DNA from: an uncultured SAR116 cluster alpha proteobacterium
GTDB lineage: Bacteria; Pseudomonadota; Alphaproteobacteria; Puniceispirillales; Marisalimonadaceae
Length of the DNA: 64,000 bases
Direction: 5' to 3'
Assembly: GCA_902615325.1 (NCBI GenBank)
Contig: CACMOJ010000001.1
Coordinates: 62,001-126,000 of the forward strand
A model generated the notes under the pieces. That model was not told the origin of the DNA. It ran no database searches and saw only the letters and a list, made by a program, of their open reading frames with translations. Both the position numbers and the translations under genes were made by a program. Shown here piece after piece: positions 1 to 2,967 of this stretch (the stretch's first letter is position 1; each line of letters opens with the position of its first letter).

Positions 1-47
1 AATTAAATCAGATGATTAAAATGGAATAACGAGGAGGTTCTCTCCTT
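1..47 (+). repeat. Copy 1 (left-truncated by window edge) of a dispersed intergenic element
   Basis: aattaaatcagatgattaaaatggaataacgaggaggttctctcc; matches copies at 508-597 and 1397-1486. Confidence 0.75.
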
Positions 48-140
48 CATATAATTAACATTTTTATAAAATTATATTAGTATGGAGTATGTCCTTTGTA
101 AGAACATCAATGACGTTTGTTTCAATGGAGTGTTTGTTGA

Positions 141-515
141 ATGAGTAAAAATAATGAAAAAGAAGTTTTGAAAGCGTATGAAAAATATTTAGTATATTTT
201 CTAAACAACGATATGGATGGCATCAATTCAATAGTTAAATTCCCTATTACATATATTGCTGATGGAGAATGTAAATCGTTAGATACATTCCCAGTCAAAC
301 CAAAAGAAATGATGGATAGCAAACAATGGGATACTACAATTGACATAAATACTTACACTCATGGTACGAATTCTACTAAAGGTCATGTTATCAGTAGTGG
401 CACCAGAATAAGAAAAGATAAATCTGTGATAGAAAAATATACAGTTTTTTATGCATTTACTAAAACTAATGATGGATGGAAAATGTATGCTATATCAGAT
501 ATAATTATAGACTAG
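141..515 (+). CDS. Small NTF2-like / SnoaL-type hypothetical protein
   Basis: ORF 124 aa; N-terminal helix then hydrophobic beta-strand pattern ending GWKMYAISDIIID, typical of NTF2-like folds. Confidence 0.6.
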   Translation: MSKNNEKEVLKAYEKYLVYFLNNDMDGINSIVKFPITYIADGECKSLDTFPVKPKEMMDSKQWDTTIDINTYTHGTNSTKGHVISSGTRIRKDKSVIEKYTVFYAFTKTNDGWKMYAISDIIID

Positions 516-597
516 TTTATAAAATGAATAGAAATAAATCTATAAAATACAAGTAAATCAGATAATTAAGATGAAATGACGAGGAGGTTGCATCCAC
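508..597 (+). repeat. Copy 2 of dispersed intergenic element
   Basis: TAGACTA-N24-TCTATAAAATacAAgTAAATCAGATaATTAAgATgAAATgAcgAGgAGGTTgcaTCC; same spacing as copy 3. Confidence 0.75.
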
Positions 598-612
598 CAA
601 TAAGATAACTTC

Positions 613-1239
613 TTAGAGTTGACTTTCTATTAGAAGAATTCTGTCTTGACCAAAGTACATTTTGTTTTCATTTAGAAAGAAAGTTGGTGACCCAAACCCT
701 CCACGATCCACGAGTTCTTGAGTGTTATCTTTTAGTCTATCCTTAGTGTCTTGTTGCTGAAGAAAATTTAAAAACTTGTTGGGATTTATATCTAAATTTT
801 CAACAATCTTAATAAGATTTTCTTCTAAGGATATATCTATGCCATCAGTCCAATATGCATAGAATATTGAATTAACGTAATTTTCAATACCTCCCTCATC
901 TATAAACATAAAGGCGCCTCTCATCGCTTTAACACTGTTTACAGGAAAAACTTTTGGAGAAAAGCCTTCCCCAAAACCATCGTGGTTGATTCTAATATTT
1001 CTAAAGCAACACCAGTCTTTTAAATCTTCAAAATAGTATTTTAATTTTTCTTTGACAGGGTTTGGGTTATTTCTTGCCTCATAAACACTTGGATTAGTTG
1101 TATTAAAAATACCTCCAACTAAAATAGGCTTCCAAATAAGTTCAAAATCTTTTTTTTTTGATAAATCTGTTATCCCTTTAAAAGCCAGATAAGTCCAAGG
1201 GCTACTACAATCAAAAAAATATTCAACCTTATTTTTCAT
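613..1239 (-). CDS. DsbA-family / 2-hydroxychromene-2-carboxylate isomerase-like protein
   Basis: FFDCSSPWTYLAFKGI N-terminus and GGFGSPTFFLNENKMYFGQDRI C-terminus typical of HCCA isomerase/kappa-GST family. Confidence 0.85.
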   Translation of the reverse strand: MKNKVEYFFDCSSPWTYLAFKGITDLSKKKDFELIWKPILVGGIFNTTNPSVYEARNNPNPVKEKLKYYFEDLKDWCCFRNIRINHDGFGEGFSPKVFPVNSVKAMRGAFMFIDEGGIENYVNSIFYAYWTDGIDISLEENLIKIVENLDINPNKFLNFLQQQDTKDRLKDNTQELVDRGGFGSPTFFLNENKMYFGQDRILLIESQL

Positions 1240-1396
1240 CTCAATAATAATCTCACTTAGTCATGATTATGTAAAGTTGCAATTTATTTTAATAAGAAAG
1301 ATGCCCAATTAATTCACTTTTAAATTAAATTAAAATTAATAAAAATAAAATTTGGAAAAATATTTGTACACTAAATAGTTAAAGAATTTTTAGTTG

Positions 1397-1486
1397 TAGA
1401 CTAAATTGAAAACTGCAAAACTATTAGTCTATAAAATGTAATTAAATCAGATGATTAACATAAAATAATAAGAAGGTTTTGCTCCT
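1397..1486 (+). repeat. Copy 3 of dispersed intergenic element
   Basis: TAGACTA-N24-TCTATAAAATgtAAtTAAATCAGATgATTAAcATaAAATaataAGaAGGTTttgcTCC. Confidence 0.75.
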
Positions 1487-1490
1487 AGTT

Positions 1491-2216
1491 TCATTTTTTT
1501 CTAGAATGAAACCAAAACCTTTTATTCTCTAACTTTACAATATCTCCAGTAGCAAACCATTCTTCATAAACACAAATGTCACCTTTTACATGCAATTCAT
1601 CCTGAATAATCTTTGTTTCAGAAAAAACTTTATTTCCCATTAAAGTCAAAGTTTTTTTTCCTATTTTTAAATCTTCAACTTTAGCATCTGATGGTTTAAT
1701 TGTTTCGTTAATGGCAACAGGACCAATTTCAGTCATTCCCCAATTAACTATAAACGTACATCCTTTTTCTACAAATTTATTTATCAAAAATGCCGGAACA
1801 CCCTCACTACCACAAGTAATTATCTTTCCTTCTAAATTTAAATCTTTCCAACTCTTAGTCTTAATTATTGCTTTTGCCATTTTAGGTGTTAAATGACTGT
1901 GAGTGAAATTTTTAATATTTTTAATCCACACAAATGGATTAAATGACTCAATAAAAACAGTAGCCTTAACCTCTAAAGCTGGTAAGGTTTGTGCTAATAA
2001 TCCTGCTGCATGACCTAAATTACATACTGTGTAAACTTTACTATTTTGAGTAATCATTTGAACTTCTCTAGCTATTTTATTAGCGATTTTAATTTTTCCA
2101 TTTGGCTGAACAATGCTTTTTTTCTTTCCCGTAGTACCGCTTGTAGAAATAATTAATTCTTTATTACTATTTTTTAATAGATTTATATTAATTTTTTTTA
2201 AGTATTCATTAAACAT
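1491..2216 (-). CDS. Short AMP-binding (adenylate-forming) enzyme, core region only
   Basis: STSGTTGKKK (A3), NWGMTEIGP (A5), FATGDIV (A7); only 241 aa, no C-terminal domain. Confidence 0.75.
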   Translation of the reverse strand: MFNEYLKKININLLKNSNKELIISTSGTTGKKKSIVQPNGKIKIANKIAREVQMITQNSKVYTVCNLGHAAGLLAQTLPALEVKATVFIESFNPFVWIKNIKNFTHSHLTPKMAKAIIKTKSWKDLNLEGKIITCGSEGVPAFLINKFVEKGCTFIVNWGMTEIGPVAINETIKPSDAKVEDLKIGKKTLTLMGNKVFSETKIIQDELHVKGDICVYEEWFATGDIVKLENKRFWFHSRKK

Positions 2217-2253
2217 AAGATTGTTGATCTACTTCTATTAACTAAAACATTAT

Positions 2254-2967
2254 TTAGTTATTATTAAAAACAGCAACTGCTCTAATTGGGCTTCCAGTCC
2301 CTCCTCTAATTCTTAAAGGTAGACCTATAAATTTAAACCTTCCTTTTCCTATTAATTTATCAAGGTTAGCTAAACCTTCTATATGTGTAAAACCCATATC
2401 TCTACAAACATTATGAACTTCAAAATTATTTTTTCCAGGAGTTCCAGGACTGACAGCCTCAACACCAAAACTTGTTATACCTTTTTTTCCAAGCCACTCT
2501 GCAGATTCTTTAGTTAAGCCTGGAAAATCAGTTAAAAATTTATTTGTTCCATAAGTTCTTTCATAATGAGCCATGTATAATAAAACAGTATCCTTAGGTC
2601 TTATTTCTAAATTATCTCGACTTAGGGCGTTTTCTAAATCTTCAATGGATATATTTGACTTTAAGGGCTTATGAGATAAATCAAGACAGATCCCATCTGT
2701 ATAAAAATTTTCAAGTGGCATTTGATCTATTGATTGAGCATTAGGGTCTGGATCAAAATGGTTAAATGCATCTACATGCGTTCCTGTATGTTCTCCCATA
2801 GACATATACATAGATGCACATGAAAACTTCACTCCTTCAGCTTCTCTGATTGTCTTATGAGTCTGATAATCTGATAAGACCATAGGTGGATGGTTAGGAA
2901 GAGTTGGACATTTTTGATAAATGTCTACAGATAAATCAATTAAAGTTTCATTCAATTTGTTCTCCAT
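2254..2967 (-). CDS. Cyclase family protein (kynurenine formamidase-like)
   Basis: GEHTGTHVDAFNHFD metal-binding motif; GVEAVSPGTPG. Confidence 0.85.
   Translation of the reverse strand: MENKLNETLIDLSVDIYQKCPTLPNHPPMVLSDYQTHKTIREAEGVKFSCASMYMSMGEHTGTHVDAFNHFDPDPNAQSIDQMPLENFYTDGICLDLSHKPLKSNISIEDLENALSRDNLEIRPKDTVLLYMAHYERTYGTNKFLTDFPGLTKESAEWLGKKGITSFGVEAVSPGTPGKNNFEVHNVCRDMGFTHIEGLANLDKLIGKGRFKFIGLPLRIRGGTGSPIRAVAVFNNN

Follow-up and report, generated by a model that had tools for sequence, protein, structure and literature searches.

The arrangement reported here belongs to a class that is already known from additive islands, tandem accretion and cis-mobilizable elements (PMC4119200, PMC7771536, PMC10872708, PMC5704250, PMC3146451). 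Additive flexible genomic islands bordered by repeats of tRNA 3' ends have been described in Alteromonas (PMC4119200), Ca. Actinomarinales (PMC7771536) and Methylophilaceae (PMC10872708), and tandem accretion and cis-mobilizable elements (CIMEs) have been reviewed (PMC5704250). The Dehalococcoides ssrA islands carry more than 12 tandem direct repeats of the RNA gene 3' end around strain-specific units (PMC3146451), and Prochlorococcus tycheposons, by the description given in PMC10872708, measure 4-200 kb.

The locus analyzed here, from the SAR116 cluster, shares with additive islands a tRNA target, the successive addition of cassettes, 3'-end repeats at the borders and strain-variable content, but its repeat is ~90 bp long with candidate arm repeats and an IHF-like site, its units often hold one gene, and arrays are not always beside a tRNA. 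As in CIMEs, integrase genes have apparently been lost while putative att sites are kept and elements are stacked at one target, although the units here are far smaller and reassortment is family-wide. The Dehalococcoides islands also have strain-specific units bounded by direct repeats that match an RNA gene's 3' end, but they involve a serine recombinase, a 20-bp repeat and a tmRNA target. The tycheposons, compared by description only, are likewise marine and tRNA-linked, with a tyrosine recombinase and cargo genes. A row of small cassettes with one common site between them also recalls integrons, from which the present system differs in its CP4/P4-type integrase, its tRNA core, its putative double-strand arm sites and its lack of IntI. 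What is distinctive here, and notable, is the combination of tiny integrase-free units, core-precise reassortment throughout the family and an array without an adjacent tRNA.

Results

A single-orientation array at the left edge of the window

The window, by which we mean the whole 64,000-nucleotide stretch of DNA analyzed (G000:C1:62001-126000), carries three + strand copies of a ~90-bp element at its left edge (1-46, which the edge truncates; ~497-596; and ~1391-1485). A search of the same genome with this region as query returned sister copies with E-values of 3e-20, 1e-15 and 6e-11, so the similarity between copies is far above chance. The repeat had been picked out in an initial annotation, and its description stands: copies 2 and 3 share TAGACTA (508-514; 1397-1403), exactly 24 nt and then TCTATAAAAT (539-548; 1428-1437); the window does start within copy 1; the array goes on leftward as supposed; and the copies keep one orientation while the flanking genes run both ways, an observation correctly used to argue against gene-linked terminators. 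Altogether, the array at this locus comprises four good and two degraded copies over ~5.4 kb in a single orientation. Its features are given below in window coordinates, except for those on contig C1 to the left of the window.

C1:58.05k, degraded copy left of the window
C1:59.9k, full copy left of the window
C1:60.65k, degraded copy left of the window, right half only, joined to a gene's end
1..46, + strand, copy 1, of which only the right part falls in the window (whole element at about C1:61955-62046); IHF-like site 6-18; core 31-45 (GAGGAGGTT followed by CTCTCC); putative crossover about 39-41
40..589, + strand, cassette unit 1, core to core, with an NTF2-like gene at 141-515 (+ strand)
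497..596, + strand, copy 2; candidate arm repeat 508-514; TCTATAAAAT 539-548; IHF-like site 556-568; core 581-595
590..1478, + strand, cassette unit 2, with a DSBA-family gene at 613-1239 (- strand)
1391..1485, + strand, copy 3; candidate arm repeat 1397-1403; TCTATAAAAT 1428-1437; IHF-like site 1445-1457
1470-1485, + strand, core of copy 3, partly degenerate (AAGAAGGTT followed by TTGCTCC)
1479..2240, + strand, last array unit, with a truncated AMP-binding enzyme gene at 1491-2216 (- strand)
near 2219-2240, right border of the array, at most a decayed core
2254..2967, - strand, first gene (family F51) of the conserved right flank of the variable locus

The NTF2-like gene of unit 1 has a weak Pfam match to DUF6841. 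This unit also occurs in G002, G006 and G010, where it is 95% identical and has a different left neighbor, and the DSBA-family gene of unit 2 (Pfam DSBA, E = 1.4e-32) comes after it in those genomes too. The AMP-binding enzyme gene of the last unit is short and spans part of the Pfam model. At the right border, an element in G001 directly adjoins sequence starting at about window position 2240; core-like sequence is present at this border in G001, G005 and G006, joined in each to different units, and beyond it families F51-F53 keep their order in G001, G002, G005 and G007.

Between family F9 on the left and F51-F53 on the right, G000 has four good copies, G005 one and G007 three, and none was detected in G002. 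Copy number therefore differs inside the same flanks, and with it the genes between copies, as the initial annotation had proposed to check among strains. In G007:C9, the interval between F9 and F51 (L055/L127) holds a ~10-kb block, F13-F37, that in G006 lies beside the tRNA-Ser(GCT) array; large blocks thus move between loci as well.

Anatomy of the element

The consensus of the element is TTgTAGACTAAATTGTAGACTgAAaAAttATTAntcTATAAAATnTAAnTAAATCAGATGATTAAaATGaAATAAcGAGGAGGTT followed by ctCTCCgccA. From left to right, the element is made up of two TGTAGACT repeats, a TATAAAAT box, AATCAGATGATTA, an inverted core GGAGG..CTCC and CTCCGCCA. The two TGTAGACT repeats are spaced by 12 bp, and the same pair is found upstream of the integrase ATG. 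The core is GAGGAGGTTnTCTCCGCCA, the right half of which is the tRNA-Ser 3' end, and CTCCGCCA is found both at tRNA-Ser ends and within element cores. The IHF consensus is WATCARNNNNTTR, and AATCAGATGATTA matches it at nearly the same place in 76 of 112 copies, against a background of 0.17 per kb; the copies are related and hence do not count as independent. IHF-beta was found in G000 above the NCBIfam cut-off, and IHF-alpha as a best hit below the cut-off.

In a lambda-type attP arm, arm-type repeats are followed by an IHF consensus and an inverted core. The parts of our element stand in the same order, in unrelated sequence, and we infer that the TGTAGACT repeats would be arm-type integrase sites, AATCAGATGATTA a bend at which IHF presumably binds, and GAGGAGGTTnTCTCCGCCA the core, its right half copied from the tRNA-Ser 3' end. 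As judged from sequence comparison, the element very probably represents the core and one arm of an att site, the cognate enzyme being a CP4/P4-type tyrosine integrase directed at tRNA-Ser 3' ends.

The element might instead be mainly a regulatory or structured-RNA unit consisting of a promoter (TAGACT-17-TAAAAT), a leader and a hairpin, and the TATAAAAT box is indeed retained in 75 of the 112 copies at promoter-like spacing. However, 63 divergent copies gave no consensus fold apart from a very small inverted repeat, GG..CC, at the core, an Rfam scan of the window returned zero matches, and opposing genes follow copies 2 and 3 in the window. On these grounds we rejected a promoter or small-RNA unit as the main reading, which we consider quite improbable, and the structured RNA suggested in the initial annotation falls with it; a promoter is a possible secondary role of the element. 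The short variable stem that had been read from GG..GGTT/TCC is better accounted for as inverted core-binding repeats around the crossover.

Three junctions (G006C25_rc:6808, G010C14:4400 and G005C39_rc:4684, in L042, L043 and L052) have the core GAGGAGGTTGTCTCCG and no TGTAGACT arms, and thus point to a second arm type, or to decayed arms, on the same core.

Linkage to tRNA-Ser genes and integrases

Wherever the start of an array is visible, it is located at a tRNA-Ser 3' end, and a CP4/P4-type tyrosine integrase lies 142-143 bp further on. ARAGORN identified tRNA-Ser(GCT) at the beginning of the arrays in G002 and G006, and tRNA-Ser(GGA) at the beginning of those in G011 and G003. An integrase with arm-binding and catalytic domains stands beside the tRNA in relatives: behind the tRNA in G011 and G002 is a tyrosine recombinase of ~390 aa (domains Arm-DNA-bind_3, Phage_int_M and Phage_integrase). 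Among solved structures it is closest to phage and CP4-like integrase domains, and an AlpA-like HTH gene comes after it. An empty tRNA-Ser site is present in G006:C6, where F80, tRNA-Ser(GGA) and F2 succeed one another without interruption; in G011 the same tRNA-Ser(GGA) is followed by the integrase, with the element and F2 about 15 kb on, and in G003 the two ends of the island are split over separate contigs.

At 14 of the 17 loci that make up the integrase clade (56% or greater identity to P0001), an intact tRNA-Ser lies 142-143 bp ahead of the ATG; the remaining three have core-like sequence there. An exact TGTAGAC arm motif occurs just upstream of the ATG at 14 of the 17 clade loci; of 13 integrases that are more distant (34-46% identity, mostly tRNA-Ser-adjacent as well), 1 has it, and the arm repeat therefore belongs with the P0001 clade, members of which probably act on the elements.

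Searching G000 (81.6% complete) did not turn up an integrase with 56% or more identity to P0001, and the array at the window locus does not start at a tRNA and has no tRNA-Ser beside it; the array at this locus may therefore be inert. The nearest tRNA-Ser, tRNA-Ser(TGA), lies ~14 kb to the left in the reverse direction and has a different integrase. The type of the window array was assigned from homologous elements elsewhere.

Several neighboring systems were seen in the course of this survey. At L005:399-1843 (G000:C1:42399-43843), a different P4-type integrase, P0002, stands beside tRNA-Ser(TGA) with TTGTGGGACA repeats ahead of it, not TGTAGACT, and is a related system with other arm sites. 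Contig C33 of G000 carries a degraded coreless element in the opposite orientation, ~250 bp behind tRNA-Ser(GCT) (L006:8223-8296). The integrase copy beside tRNA-Ser(GCT) at L140 (G010:C3:65087-66253) has one internal TAA and is a decaying autonomous island. Behind its integrase, the G011 island carries genes for a FliL/trypsin-like protein (L040:4008-6290) and a MORN-repeat and caspase-domain protein (L040:6828-9473), which could be a defense or signaling pair.

Small head-to-tail cassettes sharing a ~90-bp site would also fit a true integron, with attC sites and IntI. Yet none of 58 genomes has an integron integrase above the TIGR02249 cut-off, the site does not fold as an imperfect palindrome and has no consensus fold on either strand, its core is the tRNA-Ser 3' end, and the genes lie in both directions. 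We give this explanation next to no credence.

Distribution in the SAR116 family

A single-copy query gave matches in 11 of the 13 genomes of the genus, clustered in one orientation. Copies are present in 45 of 58 family genomes (SAR116 single-cell genomes) from four genera, the best being 85-99% identical to the consensus, and an order-wide search added only one matching genome outside the family. The initial annotation had staked its repeat on further copies in the genome or its relatives, and these exist. We located 124 copies in 58 contigs at a median spacing of 1.84 kb; adjacent pairs less than 8 kb apart have the same orientation in 60 cases and the opposite orientation in 1, forming head-to-tail arrays.

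Searching named genomes for the integrase led to SAR116-cluster genomes. Exact-pattern scans of viral contigs found neither the element nor the arm repeats. A search of these contigs for integrase relatives was likewise negative, and in phage records the matches listed all fell short of 60% identity, the best of them at about 38%, so no carrier was found. We found no description of the element in SAR116 in the open-licence literature.

The 57 units lying between two elements have a median length of 1.97 kb, and 22 of them contain one ORF of at least 80 aa; 115 ORFs run with the element and 61 against it. Integrase-like sequence is present in none of the 57, and the left end of an integrase island follows only 10 of the 112 copies, which suggests that one-armed sites may be inefficient.

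Core-precise exchange between genomes

For att sites, one would expect the DNA to the left of a core to be one unit and the DNA to the right the next. Among between-genome element pairs, which are not independent events, 57 have only the left flank in common and 58 only the right. Homology in hybrid junctions switches 0-2 bases past GAGGAGGTT. The closest left-sharing pairs retain 0.85-0.97 identity through the arms up to the core and then drop to background, and the closest right-sharing pairs are 0.93-0.98 identical from one to two bases past GAGGAGGTT; the arms of the latter are only a little more alike than those of unrelated copies, and outside the arms identity is at background. The arms stay with the left unit, with no gradient. 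In the hybrid element G006C25_rc:5249, the left side is identical to G002 (115/115) and the right side to G005 (118/118), and window copy 1 is itself a hybrid, 97-98% identical to G011 on its left and 91-92% identical to G002/G006/G010 on its right. Whole units recur at 95-99% identity with different neighbors on both sides, and the G006 integrase gene ends abruptly at the core (TTGTCTCCGCCG). Of the options offered in the initial annotation, a recombination-associated cassette boundary is the one that matches this switching of flanks at the core.

Another of those options, a dispersed mobile repeat of the MITE/REP type, would explain a short, AT-rich, multi-copy sequence with small inverted segments. 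The copies, however, form head-to-tail clusters with a 60:1 bias to a single orientation, they are tied to tRNA-Ser and an integrase, and flanks are exchanged at one edge, the internal core, rather than at two transposon ends, which makes such a repeat extremely improbable.

Homologous recombination gives a further account of the shuffling, in which old tRNA-Ser islands would have decayed to passive stubs that now recombine through their ~90-bp repeats or as whole islands. The repeats are similar enough for this, G000 was found without a cognate integrase, and the arms of right-sharing pairs do lie slightly above background. The confinement of the switches to the core, with ungraded arms that go with the left unit, argues against a passive relic, as do the intact integrases that are common in relatives and the near-identical units in which both neighbors differ. 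We regard a relic as unlikely, although far from negligible.

Discussion

Under the att-site reading, whether DNA enters at the tRNA or at a core belonging to a previous insert, each event would deposit a single element at the insert's distal end, and repeated integrations would thus build a head-to-tail array. A unit of the array would run from the core right half through the cargo gene(s) and arms to the core left half. Most units are integrase-free and would be shuffled in trans or by accretion, single cassettes perhaps moving in trans. The left edge of the window is best explained as the right end of a tandem array of such integrase-free cassettes, at a locus without an adjacent tRNA-Ser.

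We further suggest, tentatively and without committing ourselves to it, that a form of integron-like gene capture has evolved here from a CP4/P4-type tRNA-Ser integrase, using one- to few-gene cassettes and one-armed att sites. Cassettes would then be excised and re-inserted in trans by att x att recombination, drawing on a pool shared across the SAR116 family and forming arrays away from tRNA genes as well.

SAR116 is an abundant ocean clade that is mostly uncultured. For this family, the putative att element of ~90 bp would supply both a sequence-defined mechanism and a marker for gene turnover from strain to strain, so that cassette content and movement could be read from single-cell genomes and metagenomes. 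The arrays mark where small cassettes were gained, lost and reshuffled between SAR116 strains, and if single cassettes are mobile in trans, they would represent an independent route to integron-like gene capture.
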